64,000 bases of DNA. Source: an uncultured Alphaproteobacteria bacterium (lineage in GTDB: Bacteria; Pseudomonadota; Alphaproteobacteria; Rhodobacterales; Rhodobacteraceae). Below are positions 8,737-17,841 of this stretch, one piece after another (the first letter of the stretch is position 1; every line of letters begins with the position of its first letter). The stretch spans positions 1-64,000 of the forward strand of contig CAKMYZ010000011.1 of assembly GCA_929200255.1 (NCBI GenBank), given 5' to 3'. The position numbers and the translations under genes are program-made. Under the pieces are notes generated by a model. The model searched no databases and had not been told where the DNA came from. It was given only the letters and a program-made list of their open reading frames with translations.

Positions 8737-9345
8737 ATGTTAGACCGCCACGCCCGCCAGATTATTGACCCACCGCTGAACCATATTGGTGCAACGCTGG
8801 CTGCGCGTGGGTTTACGGCGGATGGGGTGACATTGATTGGGCTTGGACTTGGGCTTTTTGCCGCTTTGTTAATTGCCGTGGGCCTGCCCGGCTGGGCACT
8901 GATCCCGCTATTGGCCAGCCGTCTGGCGGATGGATTGGACGGGGCCGTCGCCCGGGCGACGCGCAAGACCGACTTTGGCGGATATCTCGATATTGCGGTT
9001 GATTTTCTGTTTTATGGGGCCATTCCGATGGCCTTTGTCCTTTATGATCCGGCCAGTAACGGTGCTGCGGGTGCTTTTCTGCTTACTGCGTTCTACTTCA
9101 ACGGGACCAGTTTTCTGGGCTATGCGATCCTTGCCGAAAAGCATGGTCATAAGACTGATGCGCAGGGGCAAAAATCGCTTTACTACTCCAACGGCATTCT
9201 GGAAGGGACAGAGACGATTGCGTTTTTTGTCCTACTTTGTCTGCTGCCCGGTTACTTTTCGCCGCTGGCATGGGTCTTTGGTGCCCTGTGCTTTGCGACT
9301 GCTGTTTTGCGGATCTATGCCGCCAAGAAAATGTACACGAACTAG
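8737..9345 (+). CDS. CDP-alcohol phosphatidyltransferase family membrane protein
   Basis: A 202-residue inner-membrane protein with the family signature D65-x2-D68-G-x2-A-R-x7-G-x3-D85-x3-D89 (DGLDGAVAR then GGYLDIAVD). The enzymes swap CMP of a CDP-alcohol for another alcohol, making phospholipids or related headgroups. Which lipid is made cannot be decided. The gene lies 10 bases upstream of the ynjB-like gene and may share its transcript. Confidence 0.85.
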   Translation: MLDRHARQIIDPPLNHIGATLAARGFTADGVTLIGLGLGLFAALLIAVGLPGWALIPLLASRLADGLDGAVARATRKTDFGGYLDIAVDFLFYGAIPMAFVLYDPASNGAAGAFLLTAFYFNGTSFLGYAILAEKHGHKTDAQGQKSLYYSNGILEGTETIAFFVLLCLLPGYFSPLAWVFGALCFATAVLRIYAAKKMYTN

Positions 9346-9355
9346 AGGAAAAATT

Positions 9356-10555
9356 ATGAAATATCTTCCCATTCTGGCCGCTTTGCTGGCCCCGGTGCCT
9401 GCATTGGCCGACACTGATCCTGCAAATTGGGACGCTGTGACAGCAGCGGCTGACGGCCAGACCGTATACTGGAACGCCTGGGGTGGCTCGACGACGACCA
9501 ACGATTTTATCGCGTGGGTTGGTGACCGTGTGATGGCAGACTATGGCGTCACACTCGAGCATGTTAAGCTGACCGATACTGCCGATGCAGTCACTCGCGT
9601 CCTGTCTGAAAAGCAGGCGGGCGGGAATGATGATGGTGCCATCGATATGATCTGGATCAACGGTGCCAATTTCGCCGCGATGAAAGAGGCTGATCTGCTG
9701 TTTGGCCCCTATGCCGAGCAATTGCCGAACTGGGCTGCTGTCGACGCCGAAGGCAAGACTGTGCAAACCGATTTCACTGTGCCGGTTGAGGGTTTCGAGA
9801 GCCCATGGGCAATGGCGCAGGTTGTCTTTGTGCATGACACCGCCACCATGCCCGATCGCTTGGGGTCTATGCAGGCACTGCAAGAGTGGGCGGCGGCCAA
9901 TCCGGGCCGCTTTAGCTATCCTCAGCCGCCGGATTTCCTTGGCACGACATTCCTCAAGCAGGTGTTGGTTGATATCTTACCTGATCCCTCTGTGCTGGCC
10001 GATCCCGCCACGGACGAAAACTATGACACCGTGACCGCCCCGCTGTGGGCTTATCTGGATGAATTGACACCGAACCTGTGGCGTGAAGGCAAAGCCTATC
10101 CGGCCACCGGCACTGCCATGTTCCCGCTGATCGCGGATGGTGAACTTGATCTGTCGATTTCGTTTAGCCCCGGTGCGGCTTCGACGGCGATTGCCAATAG
10201 CGAACTGCCGCCGTCTGTGCGCACTTTCGTCTTGGACAAGGGCACAATTGGCAACGCGTCCTTCGTGGCAATTCCTTACAATTCCGGCTCCAAGGAAGGT
10301 GCCATGGTCGTGGCCAATTTCCTGATGTCCCCGGAGGCACAGGCGCGCGCGCAGGACCCCGCGATTTTGGGCTATGGCACAGTCTTGAACATGGCCGCCC
10401 TGTCGGATGATGACCGCGCGCTGTTTGATGCGCTGGAACTGGGTGTTGCGACGCTGTCACCTGCTGAGCTGGGCACCGTGCAGGCAGAGCCGCACCCAAG
10501 CTGGGCGACGCGCATCGCCGATGACTGGATGACCCGCTTCGGTGTATCCGAGTAA
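9356..10555 (+). CDS. ynjB: ABC transporter periplasmic substrate-binding protein, YnjB type
   Basis: A 399-residue protein with a signal peptide (MKYLPILAALLAPVPALA) and the architecture of the ThiB/YnjB group of binding proteins: VYWNAWGGSTTTNDFIAWV near the N-terminus and DMIWINGANF in the middle. The ATG at 9356 follows an AGAGGA site and lies 10 bases after the preceding gene. It is followed by a double-length permease and an ATPase in YnjB-YnjC-YnjD order. The natural substrate of the Ynj system is not known; thiamine-related compounds are a guess from homology. A strong hairpin follows the gene. Confidence 0.82.
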   Translation: MKYLPILAALLAPVPALADTDPANWDAVTAAADGQTVYWNAWGGSTTTNDFIAWVGDRVMADYGVTLEHVKLTDTADAVTRVLSEKQAGGNDDGAIDMIWINGANFAAMKEADLLFGPYAEQLPNWAAVDAEGKTVQTDFTVPVEGFESPWAMAQVVFVHDTATMPDRLGSMQALQEWAAANPGRFSYPQPPDFLGTTFLKQVLVDILPDPSVLADPATDENYDTVTAPLWAYLDELTPNLWREGKAYPATGTAMFPLIADGELDLSISFSPGAASTAIANSELPPSVRTFVLDKGTIGNASFVAIPYNSGSKEGAMVVANFLMSPEAQARAQDPAILGYGTVLNMAALSDDDRALFDALELGVATLSPAELGTVQAEPHPSWATRIADDWMTRFGVSE

Positions 10556-10576
10556 GCGTGTCAGAAGTGGTACCAC

Positions 10577-10603
10577 GCAGTCCTGGGGTTGACCCGGGAC
10601 TGC
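10577..10603 (+). terminator. Intercistronic hairpin between ynjB and ynjC
   Basis: An 11-bp stem with one G-T pair (arms GCAGTCCTGGG and CCCGGGACTGC, loop GTTGA) lies in the 55-base gap. There is no T-run after it, so it is more likely a partial terminator or an mRNA-stabilising element that favours the binding protein over the permease. Confidence 0.6.
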
Positions 10604-10610
10604 TTATCAT

Positions 10611-12305
10611 ATGAACCGTCGTAACTTTCTTCCTGTCCTGCCGATCCTGACCTTGCTTGCGATGCTGGGGCCGGTTGTGGCGGGTCTATGGGGCACTCTG
10701 TTGCCTGCGTTTGGCCATTTGCCGGCCGCCGGTCTGACCGGGCCATCGCTGGACCCGTTCCGCGGTTTGTTCGATTGGGCCGGACTGCCCCGCGCGGTGT
10801 TCTTGTCGGTCTCGACCGGGCTGCTTGCCACAGGAATATCGCTGGCCATCGTGATGCTGATCACCGCAGGCTGGTCCGGCACGAAACCATTTCGCGCGTT
10901 AGAGCGGCTCTTGTCGCCGCTCTTGTCCGTGCCACATGCGGCGGCGGCCTTTGGCCTCGCTTTTCTGATCGCACCATCTGGGTGGGTGTCGCGTCTGCTG
11001 TCACCCGTGGTCACCGGCTGGGACCGTCCGCCTGACCTTTTGATTGTGCAGGACACCTGGGGTTTGACGATGACCGCCGGGTTGATCGTCAAGGAAGTTC
11101 CCTTTCTGCTGCTGATCACTTTGGCCGCTCTGGGGCAGGCCGACGCACAACGCAGTGTCGTGATTTCGCAAGCGCTGGGCTACGGTCGGTTGACCGGTTG
11201 GCTCAAGACAGTGTTCCCGCGCGTCTATGTCCAGATCAGGCCGCCGGTTTACGTTGTGCTTGCCTATTCGATGTCCGTTGTGGATGTCGCCGTGATCCTT
11301 GGACCGAACACGCCGCCGCCGCTGTCGGTGCAGATCGTAAAATGGATGTCCGACCCGGACCTCGCGATGCGATTGGGCGGTGCCGCAGGCGCGCTGTTGC
11401 AACTGGGATTGGTCATCGGCGCGTTGATTTTCTGGCGGTTGGGTGAACACGCCGTGGCCCGGATCGGTCAGCGCTGGATCGCCTCGGGTGCGCGGGGCAG
11501 GTTTGATCCAGTGGTCGCGCAAGGCGCGTTGGCCGCGGGCGCGATTTGTGCGCTCACCGTGTTGTTTGGCCTTGTTGTTCTGACCATCTGGTCGTTTGCC
11601 GGGTTTTGGGGTTTTCCCGATGCGCTGCCTGATACGTTCACATGGCGCAATTGGATGCGGTTTGGGCCCGGCACGTTAGAGGCGCTGGGTGAAACCGCGC
11701 TGATCGCCGTCACGGTCGCCCTGGCCGCATTGGTTCTGACGATCGGGTGTCTTGAGGCAGAATATCGCTTTGGTTTGTCATTCTCTGCCCGCGCAGTATG
11801 GCTGTTGTATTTGCCGTTGCTTATTCCGCAAACGGCGTTCTTGCCCGGATTGCAAACCCTTATGCTGAGCCTTGGCGCCGATGTCGGGCGCGGGCCGGTG
11901 ATGCTGGCCCATCTGGTTTTTGTGTTGCCTTACGTATTCCTGTCATTGGCTGACCCGTTCCGGGCATGGGACACCCGCATGGGCACGATTGCGGCGGCCC
12001 TGCGCGCCAGTCCAAATGGGGTGCTCTGGCGCGTCCGTTTGCCGATGCTGTTGCGCCCGATCCTGACGGCCTTGGCAGTTGGTTTGGCGGTTTCGGTGGG
12101 GCAGTATTTGCCGACACTTCTGATTGGCGGAGGCCGGGTTGAAACACTGACGACCGAGGCGGTTGCCCTTGCCTCTGGTGGCGACAGGCGGGCGATTGGC
12201 GTCTATGGGTTGATGCAAACCGGGGCGGCACTGGTGCCATTTGCGCTGGCCCTGCTGATCCCGGCGCTGGTGTGGCGGAACAGGAAAGGGCTACGGCATG
12301 GATAA
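10611..12305 (+). CDS. ynjC: ABC transporter permease with two fused membrane domains, YnjC type
   Basis: A 564-residue protein with about 12 membrane helices in two repeated permease modules (about residues 60-290 and 350-560). Each module has a coupling-helix region (for example EVPFLLLITLAALGQADAQR and IAAALRASPNGVLWRVRLPM). The fused arrangement is that of YnjC/ThiP. It overlaps the ATPase gene by 8 bases. With the binding protein and ATPase it forms a complete importer in the inner membrane. Confidence 0.85.
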   Translation: MNRRNFLPVLPILTLLAMLGPVVAGLWGTLLPAFGHLPAAGLTGPSLDPFRGLFDWAGLPRAVFLSVSTGLLATGISLAIVMLITAGWSGTKPFRALERLLSPLLSVPHAAAAFGLAFLIAPSGWVSRLLSPVVTGWDRPPDLLIVQDTWGLTMTAGLIVKEVPFLLLITLAALGQADAQRSVVISQALGYGRLTGWLKTVFPRVYVQIRPPVYVVLAYSMSVVDVAVILGPNTPPPLSVQIVKWMSDPDLAMRLGGAAGALLQLGLVIGALIFWRLGEHAVARIGQRWIASGARGRFDPVVAQGALAAGAICALTVLFGLVVLTIWSFAGFWGFPDALPDTFTWRNWMRFGPGTLEALGETALIAVTVALAALVLTIGCLEAEYRFGLSFSARAVWLLYLPLLIPQTAFLPGLQTLMLSLGADVGRGPVMLAHLVFVLPYVFLSLADPFRAWDTRMGTIAAALRASPNGVLWRVRLPMLLRPILTALAVGLAVSVGQYLPTLLIGGGRVETLTTEAVALASGGDRRAIGVYGLMQTGAALVPFALALLIPALVWRNRKGLRHG

Positions 12306-12933
12306 AGGTTTGTCGTTGCGCGACGTGACAATCAGGAAAAACGGAGCACCGCTTTTGTCGGTAAGCCATGACATAGCGCCTGGTGAGGTGTTGACGGTGA
12401 TGGGCCCATCGGGGGTGGGTAAATCGACCTTGTTGGCCTTTATCACCGGCACCTTGGCGCTGGATTTTCAGGCGACCGGCACGGTCTGGCTGGATGGTCA
12501 GGACATCACCCACGCCGCACCGCATCAGCGGCGCGTTGGCATTCTGTTTCAGGATGACCTGTTGTTTCCGCATTTGTCTGTGGGTGCAAATCTTGCCTTT
12601 GGTTTGCAGCCCGGTGGTAGCCGGGCCGCGCGTGCCGCCAAGATTGCAGAGGCTTTGGATGAGGTTGGTCTGAGCGGTTTTGAAGACCGCGATCCGGCGA
12701 CGTTATCGGGGGGGCAAAAGGCGCGCGTGGCACTGATGCGGATGCTGTTGTCAGAGCCATGTGGCTTGCTGCTGGACGAGCCATTTTCCCGGTTGGACGC
12801 GGCCTTGCGGGCGCAGGTGCGCGATAAGGTGTTTGAGCGCGCGCGGGCACGGCAATTGCCAGTGTTGATGGTAACACATGACGCGGATGATGCGCAGGCA
12901 GCGGGCGGTGTGGTCGTAACGCTGGGTGAGTAA
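12298..12933 (+). CDS. ynjD: ABC transporter ATPase, YnjD type
   Basis: A 211-residue ATPase with Walker A GPSGVGKST (near 39-47), Q-loop LFQDD, signature LSGGQKARVALMR and Walker B GLLLDEPFS followed by the switch histidine in MVTHDADDA. It is short, with no C-terminal regulatory domain, as in YnjD. It powers the preceding permease. Confidence 0.9.
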   Translation: MDKGLSLRDVTIRKNGAPLLSVSHDIAPGEVLTVMGPSGVGKSTLLAFITGTLALDFQATGTVWLDGQDITHAAPHQRRVGILFQDDLLFPHLSVGANLAFGLQPGGSRAARAAKIAEALDEVGLSGFEDRDPATLSGGQKARVALMRMLLSEPCGLLLDEPFSRLDAALRAQVRDKVFERARARQLPVLMVTHDADDAQAAGGVVVTLGE

Positions 12934-12983: not shown

Positions 12984-14093
12984 CTACAACGGGGCAGTCT
13001 GAAACAACCAGACCTTCAGCCCACCATGTGGGATCGGCGCGCCCTTTGGTCTGAACGGCAACCCTGTCGCCTTGGCCAGCCCCGCCTCGCTCGTCACGAT
13101 GCCGACACGCCAGCCAGCGAAGTCACGTTTGATTGCCTCGCCCAACCCGGCGTAAATACCGTAGAGCATCTTTTGATTGCCGATCCGTCCGCCATAGGGC
13201 GGGTTGCAGATGATCAGGCCGGGTGGGCCATCGGGGCGGGTGATGTCGGCGGCTGAGAGATTACCGAAGGTGATGTGCTTTGCCACACCAGCGCGTTCGG
13301 CATTCGCGGTGGCCATGCGGATGGCACCCGCGTCGCGGTCGCTGCCGTGGAAGTGTTGTGGGGGCGTGTGGGTTTCACCCACCCTACGTAAGCCCTGCCA
13401 TCGATCTGCGTTGAATGTCGCCAAATCCTCGAACGCGAAGCGGCGCGTGCGTCCGGGGTGCAGCCCCACCGCCATTTCTGCCGCCTCGATCAGGAACGTG
13501 CCTGAGCCGCACATCGGGTCCAGCACAGGTTCCTGCCCGTCATAACCACAGGCACGCAGCATCAATGCAGCCAATGTTTCGCGCATGGGGGCCTTGCCCA
13601 CCGCTTCTTTGTGGCCGCGCTTGTGCAGACTATCGCCGGAAGTATCGAGGCTGATCGTCACGCGGTTGTCGTCGATGCGTGCTTTCACGGTGACGGACGC
13701 ATCTGCGCTGATGGCAATCCCGTGGCTTTCCTTCAATGCGGTCTCGATCCGCTGTGCTGCAGCCCCGGCATGATAGATCTTGGACTTCTTTGAGGTGCTG
13801 ACCTCAACCCGGATGGGCACGTCCGCGCGCAGCACGTCACCCCAGGGGAATTTGCGCGCCCGTTTGTCCAGTTGTGCCAGATGAAAGGCCATGAAGCTGC
13901 CGATACGCGCCAAAACCCGCGTGGCCCCGCGCAGCACCAGATTGGCGCGCCAGACGTCTTCCCAAGTCCCTGTGATCGTCACGCCGCCGGTGGTTTCCTG
14001 CGGGTCGGCAAAACCATTTGCCACAACCTCGGCCAGCAGGGCCTTTTCAAGCCCCGGTGTGCCTGTGATGAAAATCTCAAATGTTGCGCTCAT
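12984..14093 (-). CDS. THUMP-domain 23S rRNA guanine-N2 methyltransferase (RlmL N-terminal type)
   Basis: A 369-residue protein with an N-terminal THUMP-containing region (about 1-160) and a Rossmann methyltransferase domain: LDPMCGSGTFLIEAA at about 191-205 for S-adenosylmethionine and catalytic NPPYGGR at 297-303. This matches the RlmL/YcbY N-terminal half, which methylates G2445 of 23S rRNA, in a single-domain alphaproteobacterial form. The ATG at 14093 (MSATFEIF) is chosen over an upstream in-frame start because the extra residues look non-coding. Confidence 0.82.
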   Translation of the reverse strand: MSATFEIFITGTPGLEKALLAEVVANGFADPQETTGGVTITGTWEDVWRANLVLRGATRVLARIGSFMAFHLAQLDKRARKFPWGDVLRADVPIRVEVSTSKKSKIYHAGAAAQRIETALKESHGIAISADASVTVKARIDDNRVTISLDTSGDSLHKRGHKEAVGKAPMRETLAALMLRACGYDGQEPVLDPMCGSGTFLIEAAEMAVGLHPGRTRRFAFEDLATFNADRWQGLRRVGETHTPPQHFHGSDRDAGAIRMATANAERAGVAKHITFGNLSAADITRPDGPPGLIICNPPYGGRIGNQKMLYGIYAGLGEAIKRDFAGWRVGIVTSEAGLAKATGLPFRPKGAPIPHGGLKVWLFQTAPL

Positions 14094-14144
14094 CCGGCGT
14101 CCATACGTGCATTGGCATGGCAGATGCAAATGCCGCGCGGCGGA

Positions 14145-15524
14145 TCAAAAATTCGATGCAATCCCAAAGCGGATCTGAAGGGCCGAGGATTCAACCTCTT
14201 CCGCGTTGGAGCGGGTGCGTGTGGCCGACACATCAAGGCTGGGGGAAAAGCCAAAATACCGGATGTCTTCAAAGACGGTATTGGCGCCAAGGGTCACAAA
14301 ATGATCGCGCCGCCCGTCAAGCGTCGTCGCATAGGCCCGGTAATTGCGGTACCCCAGCTCGAGCGCACTTGACCAGCGGGTGCCAAAGACGGGCTGCGCA
14401 AACTCATAACTGATCCCGGTGGTGTATTCGGTGTAACTGCTTTCTGCTCCGGCTTCGTTCCTGCGCCCCGTCAAGGAGAACTGGATCCTGTCATTGTTCG
14501 GCAGCGCGGTGCTGAAACGGCCGCGCAGATCATAGCTCAACGTATCCACAAGAGCATTGCTGCGCACGTTCTGATCGCGGACAGAGGCGCGCAGGGAGTA
14601 AGCCGCCTGATCGTTCACCGGGATCGTATGGCTGACGATGTAGTCGGTGAAATCCACGATGCGCTCTCCGCCTGACCAGTAGCTGCCGATGTTGAAGCCA
14701 AAGGTGACCGGACCAAGCGGGCTGAGGTTTTTGCGGGTATGGCTTGCGCCAATCTGGGCAAGAAATGTTGAGAAATCCTGGCCTGTGACGGACCGGACAT
14801 CTTCACTTGGCGAGGAATCGAGCAGGGCCCTTGCGTCGGAGGACAGCGTATAGGCCTGACCAGACATCGCGGCGTTAAGTGATGTGCGCTGCGCCGCGTC
14901 CTCTGACAGCCGGTAATCCAATTCCACGCTCGCGAAATATTCGATCCCGGACAGGGCCCGCCGGTCTTCCGGCAACAGGAACGTCAGCGGGATGCCCTCA
15001 AATTCAAGTATGCCTTCGTCGGACCCGTTGTTGACGTTGTCAGAGGGTGCGACAGAGCCGTTCAGCTGCACTGAAAGCGGGTTGGCAGAGGTGATGCGCA
15101 CATATTCGGTCACCACCGCCTGTGCATCTTCGTCAGAAGAGATATTGTTGGCCGCCCGCCGCAGCCAGAACTCTGCCCGCACGAAATGCTTCAGCCGCCC
15201 GCGCGCCCGCGCCGCCAGCCGTGCGGATTGCAGGCGGCTTTGCTCGTCCGGGGCGACATCATAGGCGCGTGCGGCGGTTCTGGCAGATGCGGCGTCCTGG
15301 CCTAGGTCAGATTGCGCCACGGCCAGCAGGAACAGGGCGGCATAGCTGTCGGGGGCCTGCACCAGCATTTGTTCGGCCAGCGCCGCGGTTTGTGCGGGCT
15401 CTCCGGCGACCAGCGTTGCCTCGGCCTGTGCTTGCAGCTCTGCCAGGTTGGTTTGGCTCGCGGCAGGCGCGCCGGTTAGTCCAAGCGCAAGGACAAGGCT
15501 GCAAAGGCAGAGCAGTTTTTGCAT
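14145..15524 (-). CDS. Slam-type surface lipoprotein assembly modifier (TPR plus outer-membrane barrel)
   Basis: The 459-residue protein has a signal peptide (about 1-22), helical TPR-like repeats to about residue 145, then the segment GSVAPSDNVNNGS at 156-168, which resembles the barrel entry of Slam proteins, and a long beta-rich region of alternating strands ending in IRFGIASNF, a typical outer-membrane C-terminus with a final aromatic. Slam proteins move lipoproteins or secreted proteins across the outer membrane and usually neighbour their client. Here the divergent neighbours are two CAP-domain lipoproteins. The start at 15524 begins the signal peptide. Confidence 0.75.
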   Translation of the reverse strand: MQKLLCLCSLVLALGLTGAPAASQTNLAELQAQAEATLVAGEPAQTAALAEQMLVQAPDSYAALFLLAVAQSDLGQDAASARTAARAYDVAPDEQSRLQSARLAARARGRLKHFVRAEFWLRRAANNISSDEDAQAVVTEYVRITSANPLSVQLNGSVAPSDNVNNGSDEGILEFEGIPLTFLLPEDRRALSGIEYFASVELDYRLSEDAAQRTSLNAAMSGQAYTLSSDARALLDSSPSEDVRSVTGQDFSTFLAQIGASHTRKNLSPLGPVTFGFNIGSYWSGGERIVDFTDYIVSHTIPVNDQAAYSLRASVRDQNVRSNALVDTLSYDLRGRFSTALPNNDRIQFSLTGRRNEAGAESSYTEYTTGISYEFAQPVFGTRWSSALELGYRNYRAYATTLDGRRDHFVTLGANTVFEDIRYFGFSPSLDVSATRTRSNAEEVESSALQIRFGIASNF

Positions 15525-15727
15525 TATGTCGGGCCTGTGATCATTGCTGCCAAAGCAATACAAAGTTCTGGGGCTAGCGCAAGTTAGCTGAAATCAGAGG
15601 CGGATAGAGTCCCATCACCGCCGCATCATTGGCGAAAACCTGCCACGCGAGGTGTCGCGCGGAGTTTTCCTTTTCGGATGCAACCGCTTGCGGTTAGCAG
15701 TGCTGGGCGTGATCAGGAGGGGAATCC

Positions 15728-16282
15728 ATGAAATACTTTGTATCAATATTGGCGTTGGCTGCATTGCCGGCATGTATAAAAAGCGATGACAGTGCGGTTG
15801 ATCTGACCCCAAGCACTCCAAGCGTGAGTATGAACAATGATATGGGTGCCATACTGAACGGCGCGCGCACCGGTGGGTTGGAGCCGCTTGTGTATGATGG
15901 TCGTGTTGGCCAAATTGCGCAAAATCACGCAAACGACATGTTCGACCGGGATTACCTAAGTATCTATGAACTTGGCAGCACCAATGGAACTGCGCCCGAT
16001 GGTCGTCGCGACCTCGGCGATGACTTGAACGCTGCTAATCTCCGATGGGAGCAGATTGAGCAGTTTGTGGCTGAAGGTGACAAGACAGTCGCAGTCTTGT
16101 TCAACGAATTTAGCAACCGCCCCTTAGGTGGCCCAATTGAAGGTAGTATCGATCAGGGTATGGATGATGCTCTTGAATTGGCTGATTTTGAGTTCTTTGG
16201 CATAGGCAAAGCCGGGAGCGGTTCGGACCAGAAGTTCGCGCTTTTGCTAGTACACCCGATGTCCTACTGGTCAGACCGTTGA
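15728..16282 (+). CDS. Lipoprotein with a divergent CAP (SCP-like) domain
   Basis: A 184-residue protein with a lipoprotein signal (LPAC, lipid-modified C16) and a weak CAP-like domain: an N-terminal helix (ILNGARTGGLEPLVYDGRV), then IAQNHANDM, and a terminal strand segment FGIGKAGSGSDQKFALLLVHP. The usual SPGH motif is replaced by SNRPLGGPI, so catalytic-type residues seem lost. A strong AGGAGG site precedes the ATG. It is a probable paralogue of the next gene and lies divergent to the Slam-type gene, so it may be a surface-exposed client (inference). Confidence 0.6.
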   Translation: MKYFVSILALAALPACIKSDDSAVDLTPSTPSVSMNNDMGAILNGARTGGLEPLVYDGRVGQIAQNHANDMFDRDYLSIYELGSTNGTAPDGRRDLGDDLNAANLRWEQIEQFVAEGDKTVAVLFNEFSNRPLGGPIEGSIDQGMDDALELADFEFFGIGKAGSGSDQKFALLLVHPMSYWSDR

Positions 16283-16469
16283 GCCTCGGACGCGGTTAGC
16301 AAATTCGTAAGAGTGCCTCGCCCCTCACGACAAAGGTAAAATGCAGCCTCTCAAGTAAAAAGCAGTGCCCGGATTTGAATGGTATTGTCGCTGAACTGGC
16401 GATAATTTTAGGTTCCCTGGCGCAGGCCTCTGCCTGTCTACCATACCGAAACGGCATAAGCCTGCCGAG

Positions 16470-16491
16470 CCAGCGTCCTGTGGGACGCTGG
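16470..16491 (+). other. Perfect hairpin in the leader of the second CAP lipoprotein gene
   Basis: Arms CCAGCGTCC and GGACGCTGG form a perfect 9-bp stem with loop TGTG, 58 bases before the next start codon. No T-run follows on the plus strand, so it could be a 5' UTR stem, an operator, or a weak terminator of the preceding gene. The rest of the 267-base gap shows nothing I can name. Confidence 0.5.
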
Positions 16492-16549
16492 TGTTGTGTG
16501 ACCCGTTCCGCCTGTTTTAGGCCTGTAACGCAACGTAAGGGAATCACTA

Positions 16550-17059
16550 ATGAAAAACCGCATCTTCTGTGCCATCGCTATCTGTTTGACTGCCGCATGC
16601 ATGGGCGGTGGCGGGTCCGGTGGATCGGGAGGGTCTGGTGTTGATCGGGTGCAGGCGTCATTGACGGCGATAGATAACTCCCCCGATCGCAGTTTTGACG
16701 CGCTGCTCAACAGCGTGCGGTCTGTATACGGTTCCGGCAATGTATCCTATGATGCGCGCCTTGGCGTTGCCGCGCAGGCTCATGCCGATGACATGCTGGC
16801 CAATAACTTCTTTGCGCACCAAGGCAGTGATGGCTCTGGGGCGGGCCAACGTATTCGGCGTGCAGGCTACAACTGGCGTGCCTGGGGCGAGAATATCGCG
16901 AAGGGTCAACAGAGCGAGGAAGCGGCTTTGCGCGGCTGGGTCAATTCACCGGGTCACCAGAGCAACAATGTGAACCCGAATTTTGAGGATTTTGCCCTCG
17001 CCCGTGCGGGGGCGGGGCGCGACCTTTACTGGGTTCTTGTCCTTGCCGCTGAACGCTAG
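16550..17059 (+). CDS. CAP (SCP/PR1-like) domain lipoprotein
   Basis: A 169-residue lipoprotein: lipobox ending at C17 (LTAAC), a glycine/serine-rich tether (about 19-29), then a CAP domain with [25 protein letters not shown] and [14 protein letters not shown], the standard CAP motifs, ending in WVLVLAAER. Bacterial CAP proteins are extracytoplasmic and mostly of unknown function. The flexible glycine tether suits display away from the membrane. It overlaps the convergent methyltransferase by four bases. Its paralogue lies upstream and a Slam-type gene is divergent. Confidence 0.85.
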
Positions 17060-17841
17060 CCAGACGGATCACCTGCGATGTCGCGGGTGGGGACGTTTTC
17101 GGGTTTCGGTTTGGGCTTTGCGATTCCCTCAAGTGCCCTCAGCGGTTTGCGCACCGCTTCCGTCAGGCCGGGCCGTGATGGGGCTGCCATCTGTTTGCTG
17201 ACCTCAATCATCAACACACCGCCTGCCGTGATGGCTGGCAGGTTATGCCCTACACGTTCCAGAAACCCGGCTGATTTGCGCCAGAGTTTGCGCGCAGCGG
17301 GCGGCTGATACAGGGTCGACAGTGTCCGTTCGGTGACAAAGCGGTGTTTGCGCAGCTGTGTCTCTAGCTGGCCAAGTGAGTAGGGCCGTCCAAAGCCAAA
17401 GGGTGTTTGATCTGATCGCGACCACAGCCCGCCCCGGTTTGGCACGATAAACACCGCCCGCCCGCCGGGGCCAAGTACCCGCCATGCCTCTTCCAGCAGG
17501 GACGACGGTTGTTCTGTTGTTTCCAGCCCGTGCAGCATGACCAGCTTGTCCACGTGCCCGGTTTCAATCGGCCAGAGCGTATCTTCGCAAAGCACGCTGA
17601 CGTTCGGACCATCCGGCGGCCAGGGCATCACCCCCTGCGGCCCGGGCATCAGCCCGATCACCCGCCGCGCATCTTTCAGGAACGGCCGCAACAGGGGCAC
17701 CGCAAACCCAAAGCCTACAACCATCTGCCCCTTTGCCTCGGGCCACATGGCGACCAGTTCATCACGGATCACCTTTTGCGCGGCACGCCCAAGCGCGCTG
17801 CGATAATAGAACTTTCGCAGGTCCAGAACATCAAGGTGCAT
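17056..17841 (-). CDS. Class I S-adenosylmethionine-dependent methyltransferase
   Basis: A 261-residue protein with a Rossmann methyltransferase layout: [16 protein letters not shown] for motif I near 40-55, the acidic turn region [12 protein letters not shown], and the [21 protein letters not shown] strand after motif III. The C-terminal tail is proline/lysine-rich (KPKPKPEN). The substrate is unknown. It is divergent from gloB, 63 bases apart, an arrangement I associate with Rhodobacterales. Confidence 0.8.

Follow-up and report, generated by a model that had tools for sequence, protein, structure and literature searches.

According to PMC12282271, the predicted cargo proteins of type 11 secretion (T11SS), the pathway of the Slam (SlipAM) outer-membrane proteins, are united by a C-terminal barrel, and the T11SS proteins of its cluster 3 rarely adjoin recognised cargo genes. 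What the T11SS/Slam proteins of marine Rhodobacterales carry is the question that the locus described here addresses. The nearest described CAP lipoprotein is DalA, which binds peptidoglycan (PMC10470522). A CAP-superfamily surface lipoprotein, BB0689, is known in Borrelia (PMC11784157; PMC7857515), and PMC7857515 describes other phyla with surface lipoproteins as lacking Slam homologues. Our search of the literature found no report of a Slam/T11SS barrel paired with CAP lipoproteins.

The locus lies in a window of 64,000 nucleotides, the whole stretch of DNA analysed, from an uncultured member of the Rhodobacteraceae. A gene for a 459-residue SlipAM/T11SS outer-membrane protein (P0001; 14145-15524, minus strand; hereafter the barrel gene) is divergent from two genes on the plus strand, CAP1 and CAP2, and is separated from CAP1 by an intergenic region of 203 bp (15525-15727). 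On the left the locus is bordered by an RlmL-like methyltransferase gene (12984-14093, minus strand) and on the right by a SAM-dependent methyltransferase gene (17056-17841, minus strand), both identified by profile match and from the comparative loci. A shared RNA element or promoter was considered and rejected: the one Rfam match was sub-threshold (26.9 against 55 bits), a sigma-70-type scan of 14000-17200 gave one promoter-like site against 1.7 in shuffled sequences, with none in 15525-15727, and terminator-like sites at the locus numbered four against 3.8 in shuffles.

The initial annotation had taken the 459-residue protein for a Slam-like barrel, and the profile search bore this out. Against PF04575, the profile of the SlipAM/Slam proteins of type 11 secretion, it scores 26.5 bits with E 5.6e-6, where the curated cut-off is 22, and the best stretch lies at residues 348-441 (14202-14483, minus strand). 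Furthermore, a full-length profile comparison aligned it over 427 columns with 24 other SlipAM-type proteins of Rhodobacterales (probability 100). Its layout comprises a signal peptide, identified by eye, a putative TPR-like N-terminal region and a presumed C-terminal barrel that ends in phenylalanine; this last residue is nearly invariant, which is consistent with a barrel. The N-terminal region scores 15.4 bits against TPR_19, under the cut-off of 25, and aligns with the same region of relatives, 11 of 24 of which match TPR_19; TPR_16 is matched in 13 of the 29 members of the barrel clade. Searches of solved structures by sequence gave TPR proteins only as matches above chance.

The two lipoproteins are related and differ in how well the CAP domain is preserved. 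CAP2 (P0003; 16550-17059, plus strand; 169 residues) exceeds the cut-off for PF00188 with 62.5 bits, the domain covering residues 52-163, and carries the lipobox TAAC with its cysteine at position 17. From Cys17 towards the CAP domain runs a tether rich in glycine and serine (16598-16693, plus strand, its end set by eye); among 28 relatives of CAP2, the stretch from the cysteine to the HMM match has a composition of 0.31 glycine and 0.26 serine. Five CAP2 residues (H78, H90, E114, E123 and H136) are invariant in all 28 aligned rows. CAP1 (P0002; 15728-16282, plus strand; 184 residues), with the lipobox LPAC at Cys16, scores 21.0 bits, just below the cut-off of 21.1 and so a narrow miss under Pfam's rule. 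However, the profile of the CAP1 family (12 members) matches that of the CAP2 family (28 members) with probability 100 and E 6.9e-46 (hhalign), and CAP1 is thus a degenerate CAP relative. In a joint alignment its family keeps mainly the first of the five invariant residues (11/12); the second histidine occurs in 1/12, the glutamates in 1/12 and 0/12, and the last histidine in 0/12. The earlier description of two CAP-domain lipoproteins, one with a tether, therefore holds in full for CAP2, and for CAP1 as a degenerate member narrowly under the cut-off. The linked CAPs do not stand out by a longer tether, which could have indicated surface display: over the 27 of 28 CAP2 rows and 20 of 23 DalA rows in which linker length was measured, the medians were 45 residues for linked CAPs and 41 for DalA.

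The pairing recurs in relatives. A barrel orthologue is present in 28 of 56 genomes of the genus (Yoonia-type), and in all 28 carriers (the fetched loci plus the window) a CAP gene lies beside it, so that a barrel orthologue without an adjoining CAP gene occurs in 0/28. The CAP gene is divergent in 23 carriers, on the other side in four and on both sides in one. Yoonia vestfoldensis DSM 16212 and Yoonia maritima, which can be cultured, belong to the carriers. In the remaining 28 Yoonia-type genomes, the right-border gene was found in 27, and none of these 27 loci has a barrel or CAP gene within about 1.4 kb on either side of it; in 13 of them the left- and right-border genes adjoin. Barrel and CAP genes are therefore present or absent together at this site, and carrier state changes at least seven times on the host tree, three of these changes being forced by starred branches. 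The pair also occurs in two further genera, in G140 and Cognatishimia sp. SS12, at loci from which the Yoonia border genes are absent. On a tree of 82 barrels, the label 'CAP neighbour' changes once, with support 100, whereas shuffled labels gave a mean of 21.6 changes and as few as one in 0/500 shuffles. These neighbour scans used HMMs built from sequences gathered in the analysis, one set of loci was limited to the best 80 of 129, and the barrel, host and CAP trees come from quick searches, the CAP tree with few columns for its rows. Barrel and CAP2 distances also correlate after both borders have been partialled out (partial r 0.43, 0/2000 permutations as high, control 0.08) in 25 of the 27 fetched carrier loci, two CAP1-only loci and the window being left out. 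Since every carrier has an adjoining CAP gene and the tree requires one change against 21.6 in shuffles, the linkage between barrel and CAP exceeds chance. Chance or mere synteny, examined through empty sites, side switching and the other genera, was rejected. The recurrence of CAP lipoproteins beside the Slam gene, which the initial annotation had proposed as a check, is thus found throughout the Yoonia-type carriers, in two other genera and with changed gene order.

The usual neighbour of related barrels is a different one. An upstream co-directional lipoprotein of at least 200 residues accompanies 47 of 52 non-CAP barrels (after four of 56 non-CAP loci with fewer than 900 bases upstream were dropped) against 0 of 24 barrels of the CAP clade. 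The genome studied here also has a paralogous pair, C2, whose lipoprotein is encoded upstream. The best reading of these neighbourhoods is that the barrel lineage has probably exchanged the lipoprotein gene that usually adjoins it for CAP lipoproteins. Whether the relatives' upstream lipoproteins are TbpB-barrel proteins was also considered, and was confirmed by neither method: 7/10 had no TbpB or FHBP match in Pfam and 3/10 had a sub-threshold one, and their profile did not match two TbpB-barrel proteins of this genome (hhalign, probability 13).

For the locus as a whole, we see an even chance that it is a cassette in which a T11SS (Slam/SlipAM) barrel is accompanied by one or two CAP lipoproteins as its dedicated cargo. 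The exchange of neighbours suggests a new type of cargo displayed by this machine, and from gene content and motifs the CAP lipoproteins are plausible Slam clients: as expected of a client, they are lipoproteins encoded next to the translocon in every carrier, with a lipobox in 40/40 linked CAPs as judged by a simple pattern rather than by SignalP. On this model, the lipoproteins would be exported by Sec, lipidated at the conserved cysteine, as the lipobox indicates, and then taken to the outer membrane. On the periplasmic side they would be received by the TPR-like part of the barrel protein; the barrel would bring them into the outer leaflet, and there the tether could hold the CAP domain, with any ligand it may bind, off the cell surface. 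Several observations count against the CAP proteins as cargo. First, they lack the C-terminal barrel: neither CAP1 nor CAP2 has a TbpB_B_D match, and the weak hhalign match of the CAP2 alignment to TbpB (probability 71) covers columns 7-77, which are the signal peptide, lipobox and linker end. Second, some relatives of the linked CAPs have no barrel gene: on a CAP tree from which CAP ORFs under 60 bits from unlinked loci were dropped, the linked-CAP clade also holds six CAP lipoproteins, from five Yoonia-type genomes, whose fetched loci contain no barrel gene, and among the matches listed another high-scoring relative, in G304 (217.9 bits), has the same kind of barrel-less locus. The cargo reading is also weakened by the peptidoglycan binding of DalA, by linkers of much the same length in DalA, by the unlinked TbpB-barrel proteins as alternative cargo, and by PF04575 matches in 12 of the 29 clade members only.

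Alternatively, the CAP lipoproteins could be periplasmic partners that, like DalA, attach to peptidoglycan and keep the translocon in place or regulate it, its cargo lying elsewhere, for example among unlinked TbpB-barrel lipoproteins. We consider this unlikely. In its favour, DalA is likewise a CAP lipoprotein from this order; it is an outer-membrane protein that binds peptidoglycan, and divisome proteins co-precipitate with it (PMC10470522). CAP2 also keeps the five conserved histidine and glutamate residues. However, CAP2 is not DalA: it scores 68.6 bits against the equivalog cut-off of 200 (NF052539) and falls in another clade of the CAP tree, which led us to reject that identity, and the genome has its own separate DalA (247.5 bits). 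That the CAPs occupy the place of another adjacent lipoprotein in relatives also argues against a periplasmic role. Unlinked candidates do exist, as the genome has four matches to PF01298 (TbpB-barrel) with E no higher than 1, three of which exceed the cut-off and all of which lie off the contigs of its two SlipAM genes, and among the matches listed the mean is 4.3 in the 28 carriers against 2.2 in the 28 non-carriers (p 0.03, with kinship ignored). This excess is unclear in near relatives, however: carrier G156 has at least seven matches and its host-tree neighbour, the non-carrier G158, at least nine, and among the matches listed carriers G152, G153 and G160 have one each and the nearby non-carriers G164, G173, G187 and G200 have 1, 2, 4 and 2.

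It is less probable still that the barrel and CAP genes have no function in common and are passed on together, by descent or by transfer, as a small island. The border genes are common to the Yoonia carriers, so adjacency within Yoonia is partly shared descent; the one change on the barrel tree is compatible with a single joining, and related CAP lipoproteins exist without a barrel gene. However, an island of this kind fits poorly with a CAP gene that switches sides and yet stays beside the barrel gene, with the different context of the pair in G140 and Cognatishimia, and with the lack of any CAP-less orthologue among the 28 carriers. Finally, it seems very improbable that the clade's barrel has lost secretion and become a simple porin or a channel connected with polysaccharides, with the CAP lipoproteins travelling by another route. 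In favour of this, PF04575 also includes PgaA-like exopolysaccharide exporters (PMC8406197), the share of proteins that match the family at E 0.01 is lower in the clade (12 of 29) than in non-CAP Rhodobacterales relatives (20 of 24), and the barrel protein evolves fast (mean identity 44%), but it matches SlipAM-type relatives over its full length and the scanned flanking genes are methyltransferases rather than polysaccharide genes.

Export of the CAP lipoproteins as cargo, if it occurs, would break the rule of a C-terminal barrel in clients and add a second class of cargo to a widespread translocon. The broader claim, that a T11SS/Slam lineage recognises and displays CAP lipoproteins without a C-terminal barrel, that the barrel handle is not required and that the range of cargo can be re-specified in evolution, we put forward tentatively, at somewhat short of an even chance. 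If the CAP lipoproteins are not exported, the pair would indicate that T11SS can have a partner in the periplasm, for which we know of no described case. The pair is small and lends itself to testing, since the genus also includes relatives in which the site is empty.

In comparison with known systems, the locus most resembles the T11SS/Slam outer-membrane proteins (PF04575, DUF560) of marine cluster 3 (PMC12282271), sharing with them the family match, a putative TPR-like N-terminal region, the occurrence in Rhodobacterales and an adjoining lipoprotein gene; we infer that the barrel protein belongs to that cluster. It differs in that the adjacent lipoproteins here are CAP-domain proteins without a recognisable C-terminal barrel. 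DalA, which is divisome-associated (PMC10470522), is likewise a CAP-domain lipoprotein of Rhodobacterales, and stands apart from CAP2 in score and clade. BB0689 of Borrelia burgdorferi (PDB 4D53), distant in sequence and matched by profile at E 1e-4, is a CAP-superfamily lipoprotein of the outer surface.

The gene at 14145-15524 on the minus strand encodes a presumed outer-membrane barrel protein of 459 residues that belongs to the SlipAM (Slam/DUF560) family. In a Pfam profile scan PF04575 matched its C-terminal part at 26.5 bits (curated cut-off 22), and the N-terminal part carries, by eye, a signal peptide followed by a TPR-like region that scores below the cut-off of TPR_19. Furthermore, the profile of its clade aligned with that of 24 Rhodobacterales SlipAM-type proteins at probability 100 over 427 columns. 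The clade is divergent, because PF04575 (E 0.01) matches 12 of its 29 members compared with 20 of those 24 relatives. According to PMC12282271, SlipAM-type proteins are T11SS, and the marine Rhodobacterales ones fall in cluster 3, a group for which most cargo has yet to be established; we infer that the barrel protein is a cluster 3 member. Upstream, at 9300-12933, a substrate-binding protein, a permease and an ATPase are encoded, a set that we take to resemble a YnjBCD-type ABC transporter.

Divergent from the barrel gene are those for two lipoproteins, CAP1 (15728-16282; 0.1 bit under the PF00188 cut-off) and CAP2 (16550-17059; 62.5 bits). Some CAP proteins elsewhere bind lipids. The profiles of 12 CAP1 and 28 CAP2 proteins matched each other (probability 100, E 6.9e-46). 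Residues H78, H90, E114, E123 and H136 of CAP2 are kept in all 28 aligned sequences, and in the CAP1 family (n = 12) the first histidine is kept in 11 and the other four residues in 1, 1, 0 and 0. A Gly/Ser tether follows the lipobox cysteine in the CAP2 sequence. At 50.8%, the G+C content of CAP1 is below the 58.3% of the window, and members of its family differ strongly from one another (mean pairwise identity 0.38). A PF00188 search of the source genome listed three CAP proteins over cut-off. The third, on another contig (C2:225619), lies in a type of locus that recurs in other genera (L362, L364 and L365), where amidohydrolase-like ORFs (by eye) adjoin tandem CAP proteins.

Within the Yoonia-type genus some match to the barrel protein was found in 54 of 56 genomes and an orthologue in 28, the window's genome included; the orthologue cut was placed where E values jump from 4e-72 to 9e-48 (557 versus 284 bits on the clade profile, loci checked). 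All 28 carriers have a CAP ORF directly beside the barrel gene: 10 have both CAP1 and CAP2, 16 CAP2 only and 2 CAP1 only. In 23 carriers the CAP gene occupies the divergent side, in four the opposite side and in one both. The right-border gene, a SAM-dependent methyltransferase (17056-17841, minus strand), was located in 27 of the 28 genomes lacking the orthologue, and neither a barrel nor a CAP ORF was seen at any of these 27 loci (about 1.4 kb each side, less in two). At 13 of them it adjoins the left-border gene, an RlmL-like methyltransferase (12984-14093, minus strand), which was not seen there in the other 14. On a 55-host tree of two border-side proteins, cassette presence needs at least seven changes, three of them forced by starred branches. 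From the 27 sites without either gene and these changes, it follows that the barrel and CAP genes were gained or lost jointly here on more than one occasion.

Beyond the genus, the barrel protein was matched in 80 of 149 family genomes; among the CAP matches listed for these 80, a list incomplete at weak scores and compared by eye, a CAP protein lay within 5 kb only in the window's genome and in G140, a genome of another genus. In the best 80 of 129 named barrel loci, with 6 kb flanks where the contig allowed, 24 have a CAP gene, always adjoining the barrel gene, and the fetched flanks of the other 56 have none. The named records under Yoonia, Loktanella, Roseobacter sp. CCS2 and uncultured Rhodobacteraceae are for the most part the genus genomes over again, which makes the two sets dependent on each other. 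The 24 include G140's record and Cognatishimia sp. SS12, and at neither of these two loci were the Yoonia border genes found. In a tree built from 82 barrels, a single branch (support 100) separates the 25 that have CAP neighbours from the rest; shuffled CAP labels required 21.6 changes on average, and none of 500 shuffles gave as few as observed.

The relatives without CAP genes have a different neighbour. A co-directional upstream lipoprotein ORF of at least 200 aa accompanies 47 of the 52 non-CAP barrels that have at least 900 bases upstream, versus none of 24 CAP-clade barrels. Relative to the barrel ORF start, 46 of the 47 end in the range from 238 bases inside to 25 bases ahead, and one ends 577 bases ahead. 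One such lipoprotein occurs in the closest relative without CAP (L159, from a Marinosulfonomonas MAG), where it is surrounded by ThyX-like and glyoxalase-like ORFs (named by eye). The source genome also has a second SlipAM gene on contig C2 (27% identity to the barrel protein; 26.3 bits), and a 308-aa lipoprotein gene lies just upstream on the same strand (L132:5670-8000), the usual arrangement and a natural control within one genome. On the basis of the literature, the upstream lipoproteins of non-CAP relatives likely contain a barrel domain. In a Pfam scan of ten, nine from the 47 plus that of C2, three matched TbpB_B_D or FHBP_C below threshold and seven matched neither; a joint profile of these lipoproteins gave no match to two TbpB-barrel proteins from the source genome (probability 13). 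An adjacent upstream lipoprotein is thus present at 47 of 52 non-CAP Rhodobacterales SlipAM genes, although most of the ten escape the Pfam barrel models; the scarcity of cargo reported next to cluster 3 proteins may reflect how cargo is detected. The linker of these lipoproteins (L159, L161-L216) is often acidic or Gly-rich.

CAP1 and CAP2 belong to the CAP superfamily and are not DalA, the peptidoglycan-binding CAP lipoprotein of the same order; CAP2 reached only 68.6 bits on the DalA model (cut-off 200). The DalA equivalog of the source genome is a CAP protein on contig C4 (247.5 bits), next to ORFs that resemble, by eye, L,D-transpeptidases; in PMC10470522, the DalA partner list includes a YkuD-domain protein with the neighbouring locus number. 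When 95 CAP domains were placed on a tree, the 28 CAP2 and 12 CAP1 proteins encoded beside barrel genes all grouped together (support 100), separate from the 23 DalA rows and the other CAPs; six unlinked rows fall inside this group.

Across 25 carriers, the barrel proteins share on average 44% identity, the CAP2 proteins 60% and the border proteins 77% and 85%. With both borders removed, barrel and CAP2 distances remain correlated at a partial r of 0.43, a value that none of 2000 permutations reached; the control, barrel versus left border, gave 0.08. Joint transfer could also be the source of this correlation.

In our judgement the most likely reading, at about even odds, is that the barrel protein takes the CAP lipoproteins as cargo and displays them at the surface on the Gly/Ser tether. 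What the data establish is the pairing, its repeated occurrence, the shared presence or absence of both genes at the locus, and the change of neighbour; under the proposed mechanism the CAP proteins would in addition be lipidated, transported by the barrel protein and located on the cell surface. Counting against them as clients, the Pfam scan revealed no C-terminal barrel in the CAP proteins, and their linker length did not differ from that of DalA. Furthermore, the six unlinked members of the group occur in five Yoonia-type genomes at different sites, where the stretches fetched contain no barrel gene, and genome G304 has a further high-scoring unlinked CAP (217.9 bits) in a locus of the same kind, so linked-type CAP lipoproteins can exist without the barrel protein. 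Relatives of the linked CAPs lie at a recurring locus (L324-L328, L360) beside dehydrogenase-, racemase-, acyltransferase- and membrane-protein-like ORFs (by eye), with no SlipAM gene in the fetched stretch. The real cargo might instead be other TbpB-barrel proteins of the source genome; such proteins average 4.3 per genome in carriers versus 2.2 in non-carriers (p 0.03, uncorrected for kinship), although counts show no clear difference between near relatives.

PMC9090332 describes reconstituted transport of TbpB by Slam1, with the chaperone Skp helping; PMC11784157 and PMC7857515 describe a surface CAP lipoprotein of Borrelia, and PMC10470522 a CAP protein that binds peptidoglycan. Neither the literature listings searched, nor the main text of PMC12282271, nor PMC5449769 mentioned CAP genes next to Slam/T11SS. 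The SlipAM family and the CAP superfamily are themselves known; within this search their combination appears to be new.
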